Below are positions 1 to 5,763 of a DNA stretch of 5,763 bases, in pieces. Below the pieces are notes generated by a model. That model was not told the DNA's origin. It did no database searches and worked only from the letters and a program-made list of their open reading frames with translations. Made by a program: the position numbers and the translations under genes. Source of the stretch: Desulfobacterales bacterium (GTDB taxonomy: Bacteria > Desulfobacterota > Desulfobacteria > Desulfobacterales > Desulfobacteraceae); assembly GCA_022361315.1 (NCBI GenBank), contig JAKSBB010000203.1, positions 1-5,763 on the forward strand, in the 5' to 3' direction. Numbering within the stretch: position 1 is the first letter of the stretch; each line of letters begins with the position of its first letter.

Positions 1-1
1 A

Positions 2-337
2 GAACTGCAAAATAACATCCGGGCAATCCGTGAAAAGGGCGGTGAAGTTATTGTTGCAGCGGAGAGAAGCGAAGTCGTCGGCTGCGTCTGCGTTTTAATG
101 GATGCAAGGCTTGCCGAAGGTGTTTATGCTGAAATCGTCAGTCTCGTTGTTTCAGAAAACTGCAGAGGGACGGGTATCGGTAAAGGCTTAGTAACAGAAG
201 CCGAAAAATGGTCCGGAGAAAAAGTGAACAAAATACGTGTCAGGGCCAATGCCATTCGGGATAATGCACACCGGTTTTACAAAAGCCTGGGCTACGATGA
301 AATTAAGACCCAGAAAATTTTCCGAAAAACTGTGTAA
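2..337 (+). CDS. GNAT-family N-acetyltransferase, C-terminal part (5' end cut by window)
   Basis: The frame is open from base 2 to the TAA at 335-337, giving 111 residues with no start needed, so the gene begins outside the window; the internal ATG at 98 is not the real start. Residues 49-64 carry the acetyl-CoA-binding motif A (VVSENCRGTGIGKGLV, with the R-G-x-G-I-G loop that holds the pyrophosphate), and residues 90-109 match motif B, with HRFYKSLGY as is usual near the end of these enzymes. Compared with a usual length of about 145-150 residues, roughly the first 35 are missing. GNAT enzymes move an acetyl group from acetyl-CoA to an amine in the cytoplasm; the substrate (a small amine, an antibiotic or a protein N-terminus) cannot be told from this sequence. 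The gene is convergent with the next one, with 100 bp between their stops. Confidence 0.9.
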   Translation, partial: ELQNNIRAIREKGGEVIVAAERSEVVGCVCVLMDARLAEGVYAEIVSLVVSENCRGTGIGKGLVTEAEKWSGEKVNKIRVRANAIRDNAHRFYKSLGYDEIKTQKIFRKTV

Positions 338-437
338 CCAATCCACCCGAATCAAGGTATCACAATTTCCTTCAACACTCTCACAAGTGCCATACCAATA
401 CAATTTGCCGGGTTCAAAATCTGCTTGGTACTGATAA

Positions 438-1874
438 TCAAAATGCCTGGGCACCCTGCCTGAAAAACCGGTAAAGGATCTGATAGTCCACCCCTTTTTC
501 CACCTGGGTTGAAAACCAGATAGCGGGCATACCAGCGCCGGCCCCGGCTTTATTCACAATATCCTGGAGTACCTGCTTGGCCACGGCTCTGGAATGGCTG
601 TCATTGTAAAACCCTTCCCAATCCGTTCCCTGGTACTGCCGAAGCTTTCTATAGGGAGAAATATGCGCACCCAGAATGGCGTTGAACTCTTTAAGCTTTC
701 GCCGGTTTTCCTTGTAAGTATACCGAACCACCCTCCGGACACTGGGAATATACTTCTTCCAGAGCTCCCGATCCACATCACGCATTTCAAACATGTAGTG
801 GATAACGACACGGAGCAGGTATTGCCTTCGGTATGCCACCCGCCGCTGGGTGTCCACCAGGGTCATGATATCCTTCCAGAGCTGGCGGTTCAGCCGGACA
901 AAAGTTCGGTCAAATAATTTCGCCAGATTGCGCTTGGGCTTTTCATCTTCCAGGGAGAGGTAGTAGTTGACGATGCAGTCCAATCCCCGGTCAAAATAAA
1001 CATCCACGACCTGATCCACAACGGCGTGAACCTGCTCTTCCGGAATGCTTCCCAAACGCTTCAACCGGTTCGCCCCATTGCCGTCTACGCTTTTTGGGAC
1101 AAGACGCTTGGGTTTATCCATAACAGTGTTCAGGCCATTGGTGAGCTGAAGGCGGAAAAGATCCATCTGAACCGTTGTTAGTCCGTTGACGACTTCAAAA
1201 AGGTAGACGGCTTTTTCCCGCTCTTCACGCAGGAATGACAGGATGCTGGCAAAGGCCCAGGATATCGTTTTTCGGGTGACCTGGTCCTCAAAAAATGAGG
1301 TGAGGTCATAATTGCCCCTGGTGTTCTCCCAGGCCAAAGTAAACCGGTCCATCAATACGGCTTCCAGGTGTGCCACCTTTTGAATATCCCCCCGCTGGGA
1401 CTTCATCAGAAACGGCATGAACACATCAAAATAAAAGGGAGCGGCCCAATATCCGGGGATCTCCCTGTTTTTATAATAGGCGTAATAGAATGAAGCGAGA
1501 ACCAGCAATGCTTCGGGGGCATCCGTTGCGGTCATCCGGTGGGAAAAAGAGATGGCAAGTTCTGCATCCAGCCGCGCCTTTATTTTATCGTATAGATTGG
1601 ATTTAAAAGATCCGGACATAGATCTTGCCATGGTTTCGATCAGTCCGAGCCGGTCATTTTCAACGGCATTCCGGGCGAACCGCTTTATCCCCCTGGCGTT
1701 CCGGGCCAGGACTCTTCTGGTGAGTTGTTCGTACACATAGGCATCCCTGGTACCGCTGGTGCAGTGGACTTCGCAGATCAAATCAAAAGATCTGAGATTA
1801 ATGCCGCCGGTGTCCTGCCCGAGAAAATACTCACAGTCTACCCAACATTCACGAAATTGTTCCGAATTGAGCAT
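438..1874 (-). CDS. Conserved-looking soluble protein of unknown function
   Basis: I do not recognise this 478-residue protein. The ATG at 1874 is supported by GGAGGA three bases upstream. There is no signal peptide or membrane segment, so it is probably cytoplasmic. It is rich in Arg, Lys, Tyr, Phe and Leu and looks almost wholly alpha-helical. Features include four cysteines in the first 38 residues (C10, C14, C34, C38, spaced as two CX3C pairs), an aromatic stretch at about 128-155 (ASFYYAYYKNREIPGYWAAP), a basic linker at about 254-274 with K, R and G, and a very basic region at about 345-412. The last 30 residues are aromatic (AIWFSTQVEKGVDYQILYRFF). It follows the HD-GYP gene in the same direction after 120 bp, with its own candidate promoter in that gap, so a link to c-di-GMP signalling is possible but not shown. 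The length, steady codon use and ribosome binding site argue for a real gene. Confidence 0.85.
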   Translation of the reverse strand: MLNSEQFRECWVDCEYFLGQDTGGINLRSFDLICEVHCTSGTRDAYVYEQLTRRVLARNARGIKRFARNAVENDRLGLIETMARSMSGSFKSNLYDKIKARLDAELAISFSHRMTATDAPEALLVLASFYYAYYKNREIPGYWAAPFYFDVFMPFLMKSQRGDIQKVAHLEAVLMDRFTLAWENTRGNYDLTSFFEDQVTRKTISWAFASILSFLREEREKAVYLFEVVNGLTTVQMDLFRLQLTNGLNTVMDKPKRLVPKSVDGNGANRLKRLGSIPEEQVHAVVDQVVDVYFDRGLDCIVNYYLSLEDEKPKRNLAKLFDRTFVRLNRQLWKDIMTLVDTQRRVAYRRQYLLRVVIHYMFEMRDVDRELWKKYIPSVRRVVRYTYKENRRKLKEFNAILGAHISPYRKLRQYQGTDWEGFYNDSHSRAVAKQVLQDIVNKAGAGAGMPAIWFSTQVEKGVDYQILYRFFRQGAQAF

Positions 1875-1877
1875 GAG

Positions 1878-1883
1878 TCCTCC
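1878..1883 (-). promoter_or_regulatory. Ribosome binding site of the unknown 478-residue protein
   Basis: On the minus strand GGAGGA lies three bases before the ATG at 1874. It is a strong Shine-Dalgarno match and fixes this start. Confidence 0.75.
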
Positions 1884-1927
1884 GCAAATAGATTTACGAA
1901 ATGGCGATTTTAAAGAAATCAGGTATA

Positions 1928-1956
1928 GTTATCCCGATTATTTCATTTAAAGTCAA
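1928..1956 (-). promoter_or_regulatory. Candidate sigma70-type promoter for the unknown protein
   Basis: On the minus strand TTGACT (1956-1951, five of six to the consensus) is followed after exactly 17 bases by GATAAC (1933-1928, four of six). It sits 54 bases before the start codon, in the A+T-rich gap after the HD-GYP gene. It would let the downstream gene be transcribed alone. The call rests on consensus match only. Confidence 0.45.
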
Positions 1957-1994
1957 GGGGATGGGTGTGTTCGAAGATATTCTGGCTGCACGGT

Positions 1995-3287
1995 TCAGGT
2001 ATCTGAAGATGCCGGCCGGATGCCGCCCCGTTCCTTTTCCAGGTATTCCCTGTGGATGCGCTGGATCATGGCAAGGTTGTCCTGGAAAATATCAACGACT
2101 TTCGGATCAAACTTGGTGCCCCGGAGGCGTACAATTTCAGCCACGGCAGCTTCCACGGGCCAGGCTTCCTTATAGGGGCGCTCGGTGGTCAGGGCGTCGA
2201 ATACGTCACAGATGGCGGCAATGCGGCCGGCCAGGGGAATATCCGGCCCTGCGATCCGGGCTGGATATCCGCTGCCGTCCCAGTGTTCGTGGTGGGTGAG
2301 GGCAATGGCTTTGGCGATTTCCAGAAGCTGTGAATTGCCGCCGTCCAGCAACTCATGCCCCAGACGGCAATGGGTTTTTATAATTTCACGCTCTTCCGGT
2401 GTCAGCGGCCCCTGTTTTAAAAGGATGGCGTCGGGAATTCCCACTTTACCGACATCATGCATGGGCACGGCATTGTAGAGCAGCCAGGTGGCTCCTTTTG
2501 TCAGACCGTAGGCTTTGCCGATAATGGACGTGTACCGGCTGAGCCGCTTGTTGTGCCAGCCGGTCTGGTCGTCCCTGAATTCCGCAGCCTGTACCAGCCG
2601 TGTGACCACTTCAAGCTGGGCGTCGTGGAGTTCGGCGGTCCTTTTAACCAACATGTTTTCAAGGCTCTGTTTGTGCTTCTCAAGCTCGTCCTTGGTTTCC
2701 GCCAGGGTCTCTTCCAGGCGGATTTCGTTGGTCACATCAATGAGGGTGCCAAGGGAGAGCACCACTTCGGATTCCGGATAGGACTCAATCAGGGCGATGT
2801 CTTTCATCCAGAAGGTGTCCCTGCCGTTATCGATCTGGTAAATCGCTTCGGATTTACCGGATTTTTCCCCCAGTTTCCGCAGATACCGCCTGGCCTGTTC
2901 CACCTGTTCCTTGTTCAGCACCCGTTTGGACACCAGGGAGGAATCCACCTGCTTCCGGTAGAGATATTGCTGGCTCAGATTGTTTCGGAAGGCTTCGGCA
3001 AGCATATCTCCGGCACGGCAGTTCAGCAAATGTTTCAGGCCGGATCCGGTATACTCATACCAGATATCTCTGCCGCCGATGCGCCAGGCCGCAATATAGG
3101 GAATGATGGGGGTGCCGATTTTTTCCAGGGCGTCCATGTGGACGATGGCCTTGGCCAGTCTTTTTTTCAGGGATTTATTGTTGCTGTCACGTAATATACG
3201 GCCGGTGTAGGCATAGTTTTTTTTAAACAGAGATAATAGATCTGCTTTTCCGCTCATCTGCCTGTCTGTCTTCAGCCTCCGTTGCAT
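1995..3287 (-). CDS. PAS-like sensor with HD-GYP c-di-GMP phosphodiesterase domain
   Basis: This 430-residue protein has no membrane segment and is probably cytoplasmic. Residues 50-190 form a PAS-like sensor region, with a PAC-like end at 155-190 (FWMKDIAL ... LGTLIDVTNEIRLEE). A charged helix at about 186-225 looks like a coiled coil joining it to the output domain. The HD-GYP domain spans about 225-415: RDDQTGWH (H245), MHDVGKVGIPD (H277, D278, K281), H306, HHEHWDGSGYP (H332, H333, G340-Y341-P342) and CDVFDALTTERPYK (D361). All expected metal ligands and the GYP motif are present, so it should be active. HD-GYP enzymes hydrolyse cyclic di-GMP to pGpG or GMP and so favour motility over biofilm; the signal sensed here is unknown. 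The start is not certain: ATG at 3287 has AGG about 7 bases upstream, and a second ATG at 3257 (residue 11) has no better site. There is no receiver domain, unlike many family members. Confidence 0.93.
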   Translation of the reverse strand: MQRRLKTDRQMSGKADLLSLFKKNYAYTGRILRDSNNKSLKKRLAKAIVHMDALEKIGTPIIPYIAAWRIGGRDIWYEYTGSGLKHLLNCRAGDMLAEAFRNNLSQQYLYRKQVDSSLVSKRVLNKEQVEQARRYLRKLGEKSGKSEAIYQIDNGRDTFWMKDIALIESYPESEVVLSLGTLIDVTNEIRLEETLAETKDELEKHKQSLENMLVKRTAELHDAQLEVVTRLVQAAEFRDDQTGWHNKRLSRYTSIIGKAYGLTKGATWLLYNAVPMHDVGKVGIPDAILLKQGPLTPEEREIIKTHCRLGHELLDGGNSQLLEIAKAIALTHHEHWDGSGYPARIAGPDIPLAGRIAAICDVFDALTTERPYKEAWPVEAAVAEIVRLRGTKFDPKVVDIFQDNLAMIQRIHREYLEKERGGIRPASSDT

Positions 3288-3295
3288 GCAGCACC

Positions 3296-3309
3296 TGCCC
3301 TTCAGGGCA
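3296..3309. repeat. Perfect short inverted repeat overlapping the HD-GYP ribosome binding region
   Basis: TGCCCT and AGGGCA are separated by two bases, 8 bp before the HD-GYP start codon. On the minus strand one arm covers the AGGGCA that precedes the likely Shine-Dalgarno AGG, so a bound protein or paired RNA there could limit translation. The two-base loop is tight for RNA, which makes an operator as likely as a hairpin. Confidence 0.4.
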
Positions 3310-3320
3310 ATTTCGGAAAG

Positions 3321-3373
3321 GGTGTTACTTTAAGTTTGTGGAACACCAGGGGACCCGTTCACAAAGTTCCACA
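3321..3373 (-). promoter_or_regulatory. Leader with two overlapping, mutually exclusive stem candidates
   Basis: TGTGGAAC (3337-3344) and GTTCCACA (3366-3373) are perfect 8-bp inverted arms with a 21-base spacer. GGTGTT (3321-3326) and AACACC (3342-3347) are perfect 6-bp arms with a 15-base spacer. The two stems share bases 3342-3344, so RNA could form one or the other. In the HD-GYP transcript this would lie 34-86 bases before the start codon, the layout of an attenuator or riboswitch-like leader. It does not resemble the known c-di-GMP-I aptamer that I can recall. The spacer also contains GGG-A-CCC. It could instead be an operator for a dimeric regulator. Confidence 0.35.
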
Positions 3374-3386
3374 GACTCAATAACGC

Positions 3387-3414
3387 ATAATACTGAAGAA
3401 TGCAAAGGTTTTAA
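3387..3414 (-). promoter_or_regulatory. Candidate promoter for the HD-GYP gene
   Basis: On the minus strand TTAAAA (3414-3409, four of six) and TATTAT (3392-3387, five of six) are 16 bases apart. Transcription would start near 3380, giving a leader of about 90 bases that contains the overlapping inverted repeats. The consensus fit is moderate and the region is A+T-rich, so other placements are possible. Confidence 0.3.
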
Positions 3415-3428
3415 CGCAATTGTTGACT

Positions 3429-3458
3429 TTAACATTTCTATAACATTGTTTCTATCAT
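3429..3458 (+). promoter_or_regulatory. Candidate promoter for the MFS transporter
   Basis: TTAACA (3429-3434, five of six) and TATCAT (3453-3458, five of six) are 18 bases apart, about 100 bases before the transporter start. A second TATCATA follows at 3468-3474. TTGACT at 3423-3428 is a better -35 box, but its only nearby -10-like partner (TATAAC at 3439) is too close. Confidence 0.3.
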
Positions 3459-3556
3459 AATTGTTGTTATCATAGGCCGCAGGCGAAAGATCACCGATAT
3501 GGCGTCTGCCGGCGTTTTTCCCTGTGAATCGGTTTTAGGCTGTGATAAAAGGCGGG

Positions 3557-4678
3557 ATGCGATTACTATTGATCATTTTGTCCCAGTTTCTTTCCGGCGC
3601 CATCTGGTTTGCCGGCAATGTGGCCTTTCAGGGACAGGGGCTGCTGCTGTCTGCGGTGCAGGCCGGCTTCATTGCCGGCACCCTGAGCTTTGCCGTTTTA
3701 AATGTGGCGGACAGGTTTTCTCCTGCCCGTTTTTTTCTTGTTTCGGCGGTTCTCGGAGGTATGTTCAATGCCATCCCCCTGTGGTTTGAAGGGAATGACG
3801 GCCTGCTGCTCATGTCCCGGTTTGCCTGCGGTATCTGCCTGGCCGGCATCTATCCCGTGGGAATGAAAATAGCCGCATCCTGGTATCCCGACACCCTGGG
3901 ACGGGCCCTTGGCCTCCTGGTGGGCGCCCTGGTACTGGCCTCCGGATTCCCCTACCTTTTAAAAGTGATGTCCTGGCAGGGGAGTGCCGCCCAGATACTG
4001 GGCACCACCTCACTGCTCTGCATCACCGGCGGGTTTATTCAGGCCTTCATGGTGGGGGACGGCCCTGCCCTGCCCAAGGGGTCTGCGTTCAATATCAGGG
4101 CCATCCGGGACGCCTTTGCCCACCCCGGCTTCAGGGCCGCCTCCCTGGGCTACTTCGGCCACATGTGGGAGCTGTACGCCCTGTGGGCCTTCATCCCCCT
4201 GCTGTTTAAGGCACTTGTCCCCGGCGCCCCGGATGCCTGGACATTTGCCTTTTTCCTGGTGGGCTTCATGGGGTGCAGCGCTGGCGGATTGATCTCCCTG
4301 AAGATCGGCAGCCGCCGTATTGCCAGTATGGCATTGGCGGTATCCGCAGCCTGCTGCCTGATCTCTCCGCTATTCCACCGGATTCCGCTGCCCGTAGCCC
4401 TGATTCTGCTCATGGGATGGGGCATGGCCGTGGTCACCGACTCCCCACAGTTCTCCGCACTGAATGCCAGGTTTGCGCCACGGGCCTATGTGGGCTCCGC
4501 CCTGACCATCGTTAACTGCATCGGTTTTTTTATTACCATCCTGAGCATTGAACTGCTGGACTTGTGGATATCTGCCTGGGGAATCCGCTATGCCTTTCTG
4601 CCGCTGGCCTTAGGCCCCCTGTTCGGCTGGCTCAGTATGCACCGCATGCCCAAGGGGATTACTGGGCATAACGATTGA
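3557..4678 (+). CDS. Major facilitator superfamily (MFS) transporter, substrate unknown
   Basis: This 373-residue inner-membrane protein is hydrophobic throughout, with about 12 predicted helices and a length normal for the compact MFS_1 group. Helix 1 starts right after the start (LLLIILSQFLSGAIWFAGN). The loop after helix 2 has ADRFSPARFF (D52, R53, R58), a relaxed form of MFS motif A. Helix 4-5 holds RFACGICLAGIYPVGMKIAA and GRALGLLVGALVLASG. A cytoplasmic middle loop at about 166-190 separates the halves. Helix 7 has the sequence GYFGHMWELYALW (198-210), and TDSPQFSAL (294-302) lies before helix 11; both look like signature patches of one MFS subgroup, but I cannot name its substrate. The start chosen is ATG 3557, preceded by AAAGGCGGG; an in-frame GTG at 3542 would add five residues (378 in all), and a stop lies at 3536. 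It is transcribed away from the HD-GYP gene and converges with the solute-binding protein, overlapping its end by 20 bp. Confidence 0.92.
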   Translation: MRLLLIILSQFLSGAIWFAGNVAFQGQGLLLSAVQAGFIAGTLSFAVLNVADRFSPARFFLVSAVLGGMFNAIPLWFEGNDGLLLMSRFACGICLAGIYPVGMKIAASWYPDTLGRALGLLVGALVLASGFPYLLKVMSWQGSAAQILGTTSLLCITGGFIQAFMVGDGPALPKGSAFNIRAIRDAFAHPGFRAASLGYFGHMWELYALWAFIPLLFKALVPGAPDAWTFAFFLVGFMGCSAGGLISLKIGSRRIASMALAVSAACCLISPLFHRIPLPVALILLMGWGMAVVTDSPQFSALNARFAPRAYVGSALTIVNCIGFFITILSIELLDLWISAWGIRYAFLPLALGPLFGWLSMHRMPKGITGHND

Positions 4679-5390
4679 TAATGGCATCGTAGGTACCGTC
4701 GGCCTTTACGTCGCCAAGGGCCTTTTCAAGCCGGGCTTTGGTGGCGTCATCCACCGTACCTTTGGAAGCGGCCAGATAAATGGTACCACCGGGATAGGAG
4801 ACGCCTTTGATTAACTCAGACGGATCTCCGCCGAACTGCTTATAGTTATGAACCCCTAAAAGAAATCCGTGGCAGAGCACCCCTTTCACCCGTTTGGCCT
4901 TGAGGAGTTGAAAGCATTTGAGCTCGGTGTTTTTTGCATCTACTTTAGCATAGCCCATTTCCTGGAGTTTATACTCCGCCGGGGCGGACCTCAGGGCACA
5001 GACCTTCAATTTTTTCATGGCGGCTTCGTCGTTCACCGGTACCCCGGGGTCGTTGGTCACCATCTGGAGTTTATACTCCACAAGGGGAATGATCCATTCG
5101 TAGAGTGCTTCTCTGTTGGCGGTCCGGGTCAGGGGGGCGATGAGCAGCCCCTTGCCTTCCGGAGCGGTCTGTACCAGGTGCTGGGATCTTGCCCAGGGTT
5201 TAAAGGTGATGTTCAAATCCATCCCGGCCTTGTCGAACACCGCCTTTACAATATCAAGGGCAATCCCCTGCTCCCCCTCTTTTTCGCTGGAGTACGGGGG
5301 AATCTCCCCGCTCACCATCTCCATGGCACCGGCCTGTGCCGGGATCAGTACAAGTAGACAAAAGAGAAAAAGAATAGATTTTCGTATCAT
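4659..5390 (-). CDS. Periplasmic solute-binding protein, family 3 (SBP_bac_3 / PBP2 fold)
   Basis: The 243-residue product begins with a clear Sec signal peptide: positive n-region (MIRK), hydrophobic core at 5-17 and an A-x-A-type cleavage site near residues 20-22 (AQAGA). C11 lacks a lipobox, so it is probably a free periplasmic protein. The mature part has the family 3 pattern: PPYSSEKEGEQGIALDIVKAV at about 31-51, the substrate-proximal KPWAR (64-68), and LTRTANREALYEWIIPL at about 87-103, similar to the T-x-x-R-x-x-x-F/Y segment of amino-acid-binding relatives. Cysteines 131, 159 and 173 could form a disulfide. Its length is typical. These proteins bind polar amino acids or similar small solutes for an ABC importer, or act as sensor inputs. 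No permease or ATPase gene lies in this window, so it looks solitary here, and the ligand cannot be told. The start is fixed by GGAGGA. Confidence 0.9.
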   Translation of the reverse strand: MIRKSILFLFCLLVLIPAQAGAMEMVSGEIPPYSSEKEGEQGIALDIVKAVFDKAGMDLNITFKPWARSQHLVQTAPEGKGLLIAPLTRTANREALYEWIIPLVEYKLQMVTNDPGVPVNDEAAMKKLKVCALRSAPAEYKLQEMGYAKVDAKNTELKCFQLLKAKRVKGVLCHGFLLGVHNYKQFGGDPSELIKGVSYPGGTIYLAASKGTVDDATKARLEKALGDVKADGTYDAIINRYAQ

Positions 5391-5394
5391 AGTC

Positions 5395-5400
5395 TCCTCC
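5395..5400 (-). promoter_or_regulatory. Ribosome binding site of the solute-binding protein
   Basis: On the minus strand GGAGGA stands four bases before the ATG at 5390. It is the rightmost clearly bacterial signal in the window. Confidence 0.8.
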
Positions 5401-5604
5401 CAAAAAAATGATTTAGAATGATGGAACTACCGGCACCTGTTTCGTGTCGTATCAGCACCGGGTAATGGTAAGGCAACAGAAAGAGAGCCAACCGTAATGG
5501 GTAAATTTCATTTCAAAAACTATCCATTCTCAACATGCAAATAAAAAGCATTTCCTTGTGGGAAAAGCGTGCTGCATCAAAAGAAGTCAAATGAAATCAA
5601 TTAG
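5401..5604. other. Non-coding stretch holding the change from bacterial to animal-like DNA
   Basis: No gene is supported here. The first 100 bases have mixed composition and could be the upstream region of the solute-binding protein gene, although I find no good promoter facing it. From about 5500 the sequence turns visibly A+T-rich and intron-like. Two related stretches, ACCGGGTAATGG (5457-5468) and ACCGTAATGGG (5491-5501), are imperfect copies of each other. The point where bacterial DNA stops cannot be placed by eye; it must lie right of the ribosome binding site and left of the splice acceptor tract. Confidence 0.5.
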
Positions 5605-5664
5605 ATACATTCATTCCTTTATTTTCCTTCCCTCCTTTATTCCATTCTCTTTCCATTCACTTAG
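5605..5664 (+). other. End of a spliceosomal intron: polypyrimidine tract and AG acceptor
   Basis: Bases 5605-5663 contain no G, and 46 of the 54 bases at 5611-5664 are pyrimidines, ending in CACTTAG. No other AG lies between 5604 and 5663-5664, as expected of the AG-free zone before an acceptor. A weak branch-point candidate TCAAT lies at 5597-5601. The acceptor joins the zinc-finger frame with intron phase 2: base 5665 is the third base of a split codon, followed directly by Tyr and the second zinc cysteine of a finger. Confidence 0.75.
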
Positions 5665-5763
5665 GTATTGTCCCAAAGGTTTCACCCAATATGGAACTCT
5701 TCAGGCGCACGAAAGGACACACACCGGAGAAAAGCCATTTCAGTGCCAGTTCTGTGACAAGGC
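5665..5763 (+). CDS. Exon of an animal-type C2H2 (Krueppel-like) zinc-finger protein, partial
   Basis: Read from 5666 the exon encodes [19 protein letters not shown] followed by [13 protein letters not shown] and then the window ends. This is the C-X12-H-X3-H part of one finger (C at 5669, H at 5708 and 5720), the highly conserved TGEKP linker (5723-5737), and the C-X2-C start of the next finger (5744 and 5753). K and F also fall at their usual places in the first finger (C-P-K-G-F). Its first cysteine is absent and should lie in the previous exon, two codons before the Tyr. C2H2 proteins with TGEKP linkers are nuclear DNA-binding proteins of eukaryotes, mostly animals; bacterial Ros/MucR fingers differ in spacing and lack this linker. 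The gene continues beyond the window on both sides, so its identity cannot be given. Confidence 0.85.

Follow-up and report, generated by a model that had tools for sequence, protein, structure and literature searches.

A short animal C2H2 zinc-finger sequence at the end of a Desulfobacterales contig, very probably joined to it artificially

A zinc-finger segment of animal type is an unexpected neighbor for bacterial genes, and its presence at the end of a contig assigned to a Desulfobacterales bacterium raises the question of how the two came to share one molecule, or at least one assembled sequence. The contig (JAKSBB010000203.1, assembly GCA_022361315.1, positions 1 to 5,763, forward strand) was analysed at its full length of 5,763 nucleotides, which is the window referred to throughout. 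A sequence-only reading of the same DNA had described an animal C2H2 exon with its splice acceptor at the contig's end, bacterial DNA everywhere to the left, and a chimeric or contaminated assembly as the likely cause. The features of the window are as follows.

2 to 337, forward strand: bacterial GNAT acetyltransferase, cut by the window's start (PF00583, E 3.8e-14).
438 to 1874, reverse strand: bacterial protein of 478 amino acids, family not known; three of the 86 genomes of the Desulfobacterium-MAG family encode relatives.
1995 to 3287, reverse strand: HD-domain protein (PF13487, HD_5, E 9.9e-32; NCBIfam NF053512, E 5.6e-31).
3542 to 4678, forward strand: MFS transporter (PF07690, E 1.1e-15).
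4659 to 5390, reverse strand: solute-binding protein SBP_bac_3, the last bacterial gene before the join (PF00497, E 9.5e-11).
5391 to 5496, no strand: stretch of about 106 bases between the solute-binding gene and the animal DNA, bacterial by adjacency only.
5497 to 5664, forward strand: animal sequence left of the exon, a probable intron end with a pyrimidine tract and acceptor AG at 5663-5664 (homology to proteins P0050 and P0051; acceptor-like site).
5665 to 5763, forward strand: first part of an animal C2H2 zinc-finger exon, truncated at the window's end (Pfam, PDB, protein and profile searches, tblastn).

The bacterial character of the left part was borne out, with five bacterial genes between 2 and 5390. 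Four of these genes are complete, closely packed, without stops or frame shifts, and related to genes of Desulfobacterium MAGs or of the family to which those belong; the ATG of the solute-binding gene is preceded by GGAGGAG. The HD-domain protein is probably a cyclic-di-GMP phosphodiesterase, its match to NF053512 scoring 108 bits, far under the family cut-off of 400. The 478-residue protein matched neither a Pfam nor an NCBIfam family at E 0.001; its relatives in the three family genomes share 42-52% identity, and a scan of genome contigs yielded eight pattern matches, none of them a relative. For the solute-binding protein, 15 close relatives besides its own entry were found at 42-80% identity (alignment A2), the two with named organisms being from Desulfobacterium sp. 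and Desulfobacteraceae, while the remaining 31 matches share 25-30% identity and, where named, appear Burkholderiales-like as judged by those names. A contig scan with alignment A2 returned relatives in 3 of 30 pattern matches. Loci in two Desulfobacterium MAGs carry relatives at 58% (L001) and 54% (L002) identity, and a third, in an uncultured Oleiphilus MAG, carries one at 40%; the first two MAGs hold the best solute-binding matches among the 86 family genomes, 48 of which contain some match. A plasmid search with the same protein returned 16 records, all below 60% identity, the five listed ranging from 25 to 27%. No fetched locus carries two window genes together, so that the window's gene order has no counterpart among them and the family assignment rests on single genes. 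Taken as a whole, the left 5.4 kb or so reads as ordinary bacterial DNA, nearest to Desulfobacterium MAGs. The solute-binding entry itself (P0001; 4659-5390, reverse strand) was counted on two contigs, the longer of which has the 5763 bases of the window.

At the other end, the frame ending at 5761 remains open to the window's end and encodes C-X12-H-X3-H, a TGEKPF linker, and the CxxC of a following finger, the first finger being without its first cysteine. The finger and linker pattern of C2H2 proteins is present, and no finger in the window has its full set of two cysteines and two histidines, the second being cut by the window's end; the segment is a piece of a C2H2 gene rather than a whole member of the family. 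Because this piece is cut at both ends, its Pfam scores fall under the curated cut-offs (zf-H2C2_2, E 2.6e-9, 37.3 bits versus 40; zf-C2H2, E 8.3e-4, 20.1 bits versus 25.2); the longer relatives P0048, P0050, and P0051 each exceed the cut-offs for two of the three Pfam models matched. The 33 finger residues match 228 distinct PDB chain sequences, with ZNF568, Aart, PRDM9, and CTCF at the top of the 60 shown. A first protein search returned two proteins from two candidates, namely P0048 (53/66 residues identical, tract included) and P0049 (26/33, finger part), and P0052 has 31 of 33 finger residues in common with the window. A three-sequence profile search found 5920 proteins among 7953 candidates scored; the named source organisms of the best 120, including fish, rodents, and ticks, are all animals, some of the JGI source names among the matches listed being functional only. 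The search of the translated finger that had been proposed earlier thus gave animals for every named organism among the matches listed, and the nearest complete relatives are multi-finger proteins.

The sequence preceding the finger is equally distinctive. The earlier description of 59 bases without G, a pyrimidine tract, TAG, and a finger in one frame is exact: the G-free run spans 5605-5663 and is the longest in the window, the next being 35 bases (5502-5536). Among random first-order Markov sequences of 5763 bases (n = 500) and 373 bases (n = 2000), a G-free run of 59 bases occurred in 1/500 and 0/2000, respectively, under the composition of the whole window, in 10/500 and 3/2000 under that of 5391-5763, and in 67/500 and 10/2000 under that of 5498-5763. 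Such a run is therefore rare given the bacterial base composition, but no more than fairly rare given that of the local sequence. It leads into TTAG, with the AG at 5663-5664 and C or T at 17 of the 20 preceding bases. Both strands were scanned for an AG that directly follows a pyrimidine, has 16 or more pyrimidines among the 20 preceding bases, and has no further AG within the 40 preceding bases (criteria chosen after the site was seen); 5663 was the sole site in the window.

An acceptor at this position had been proposed to account for the missing first cysteine, and the flanking residues speak partly in its favor. Where the window reads L-R-Y-C, complete relatives read C-K-Y-C (P0049, P0053, P0056), C-R-Y-C (P0052, P0139), or C-N-Y-C (P0055); a phase-2 acceptor, with the exon beginning at the G of 5665, would give K or R at the second residue and would fit an upstream exon supplying the cysteine. 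What did not carry over is the intron in the closest intact relatives, for it is absent at this place in P0049, P0052, P0053, P0055, and P0056, where the finger is uninterrupted in one open frame. P0050 and P0051 keep the tract, the AG, and the cysteine. P0048 has the tract without the AG, with W for the window's R and F for the window's C, and, as deduced from its protein letters, may be a decayed copy that lost both AG and cysteine. Of six comparisons of finger with tract, the finger side was better conserved in five (p < 0.001 in four, p 0.012 in one), and the window and P0051 showed no difference (finger side 32/32, tract side 54/56, p 0.53); the upstream differences are inflated by shifts of frame among the copies. 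Judged from the sequence, 5663-5664 is a probable splice acceptor at the end of a probable intron. Since five relatives read the finger uninterrupted, the tract may belong to an intron confined to one lineage, or it may mark where a partial gene copy ends.

The animal sequence extends further to the left than the exon and tract. By tblastn, P0050 and P0051 match the window over tract and finger in 78/88 and 86/88 residues, respectively, both starting at 5498, and in the read-through frame left of the exon the window shares 54/56 residues with P0051 and 46/56 with P0050. P0048 begins with an ATG matching the window's ATG at 5497. Leftward of that point P0050 and P0051 resemble each other and the window differs, and 5391-5496 is unmatched by P0048, P0050, or P0051, each of these statements resting on one representative per cluster. 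These alignments place the animal DNA at 5497/5498 to 5763, about 267 bases. Accordingly, the finger and acceptor-like site at the contig's end stand as first described, and the animal DNA starts near 5497 rather than at 5605.

The clusters to which the animal piece belongs contain 22 (P0050), 9 (P0051), and 1 member sequences; it exists in many variants, perhaps as a multi-copy sequence, which may be copies within one genome or differences between samples, the protein collection revealing only those with an open frame. Left of the finger exon (5497-5664), the variants P0048, P0050, and P0051 are open across tract and acceptor, and P0050 and P0051 differ from each other by apparently compensating single-base shifts. 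This portion is possibly an animal element that was duplicated or is present in multiple copies. Searched as DNA against 395 genomes of the phylum, the animal piece gave matches in two, of just 26 and 31 bases, which were judged chance. A symbiont-bearing marine worm was considered as the source of the animal piece and set aside, no close relative bearing the name of an organism having emerged. P0048, P0050, and P0051 could conceivably stem from the contig's own data set, a guess given no weight here.

Since P0050 and P0051 continue leftward with a common flank, the window can be said to leave the animal sequence abruptly at about 5497, within an apparent intron. On one side of the join lies animal sequence of non-coding look, and on the other the start of a bacterial gene; GC content falls from 0.55 at 5101-5400 to 0.38 at 5401-5700. 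As aligned, the join appears to be at 5497 or somewhat to the left, at the right end of or inside 5391-5496, a stretch presumed to be bacterial DNA lying upstream of the solute-binding gene. Against the 86 family genomes, 5391-5496 gave one match of 25 bases, judged chance, and the corresponding upstream sequences at L001 and L002 match 5391-5500 over at most 11 bases. Scanning 5300-5763 for promoters and terminators gave no hit, roughly the outcome in shuffled sequence.

The join shows no long stretch common to both sides on which an assembler could have gone astray. The repeats in 5391-5763 consist of an 11-base tandem pair in the tract, with none at the join, and a weak inverted pair (5469-5486 and 5646-5663; 18 bases, 78% complementary) also lies away from it. 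By eye, the seven bases GTAATGG are seen at 5462-5468 and again at 5494-5500, the second copy spanning the presumed join; they are possibly a short overlap used in joining, and possibly chance. Two sources and an abrupt join between them, by which a chimeric contig is recognized, are both present in the window.

Other origins for this arrangement have to be weighed. One is a fresh insertion of at least 5 kb of DNA from an associated, sulfate-reducer-like bacterium into the intron of an animal zinc-finger gene that exists in multiple copies. The join does fall within apparently non-coding animal sequence, where an insertion would be tolerable, but the bacterial part comprises four complete genes in normal arrangement without decay, and the longer cluster representatives, P0050 and P0051, have another left flank, common to both. 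Nothing in the results favors such an insertion, and it is considered very unlikely. The reverse event, in which a bacterial chromosome took up animal DNA, would suit a window that is mostly bacterial. Against it, C2H2 fingers were found in none of the 86 genomes of the Desulfobacterium-MAG family (the completeness of which is not stated), and a pyrimidine tract with a probable splice site would be useless to a bacterium, making uptake exceedingly improbable. Nor were C2H2 fingers found in the three genomes behind L001-L003.

It could also be supposed that the finger belongs to a native bacterial or viral gene and that the tract before it is coincidental. C2H2-like fingers are known from some prokaryotes, and a control search of 14 named genomes was positive in one, Methanocaldococcus jannaschii; moreover, an open frame containing a GTG codon at 5558 reaches the window's end. 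Weighing against a native gene are the multi-finger architecture of the nearest complete relatives, the animals (fish, rodents, ticks) that make up the named organisms among the matches listed, and the viral contig scans, in which none of 14 pattern matches obtained with P0048 and none of 40 obtained with alignment A3 encode a relative, these scans reaching close relatives only, the query being so short. Best matches to bacterial proteins without an intron, or the same arrangement in bacterial genomes, had been named beforehand as refuting an animal origin, and neither was found among those searched. A native gene therefore seems barely credible.

With high probability the contig is a chimera arising from a sample that contained both animal and bacterium, as the earlier reading had supposed; it agrees with the domain matches, the animal relatives, and the absence of C2H2 fingers from the 86 family genomes. 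Bases 1 to approximately 5496 would derive from a bacterium related to the Desulfobacterium MAGs, and those from 5497/5498 to the end from an animal in the same sample, contributing a probable intron end and the start of a C2H2 exon. Their joining would have taken place in library preparation, amplification, or assembly. The contig may end inside the animal piece because near-identical variants could not be resolved. The searches establish the type of DNA on either side and the point at which similarity to the animal relatives begins. The presence of both DNAs in one sample, the artificial nature of the join, and the step at which it arose are inferred, the artefact reading being drawn from the anatomy of the window and the commonness of such artefacts.

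As an artefact, the window serves only as a warning, in that annotation of the contig as it stands would call the finger a bacterial protein, and the join is open to misreading as lateral transfer. Were the join real, an animal gene would have received, in recent times, a cluster of bacterial genes still intact. The review PMC8862208 counts chimeric contigs among the forms of genome contamination and cites the case of the tardigrade, in which bacterial contamination was mistaken for lateral transfer.

Two known systems provide the closest comparisons. With animal multi-finger C2H2 (Krueppel-type) genes, the window shares C-X12-H-X3-H, the TGEKPF linker, and CxxC; it differs in containing part of one finger plus the beginning of the following one, and in having a probable acceptor at a place where the closest intact relatives have no intron. 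With the chimeric or cross-domain contaminated public contigs treated in PMC8862208, it shares the combination of sequence from two domains of life within a single contig, and it is set apart from them by being mostly bacterial with a short animal end.
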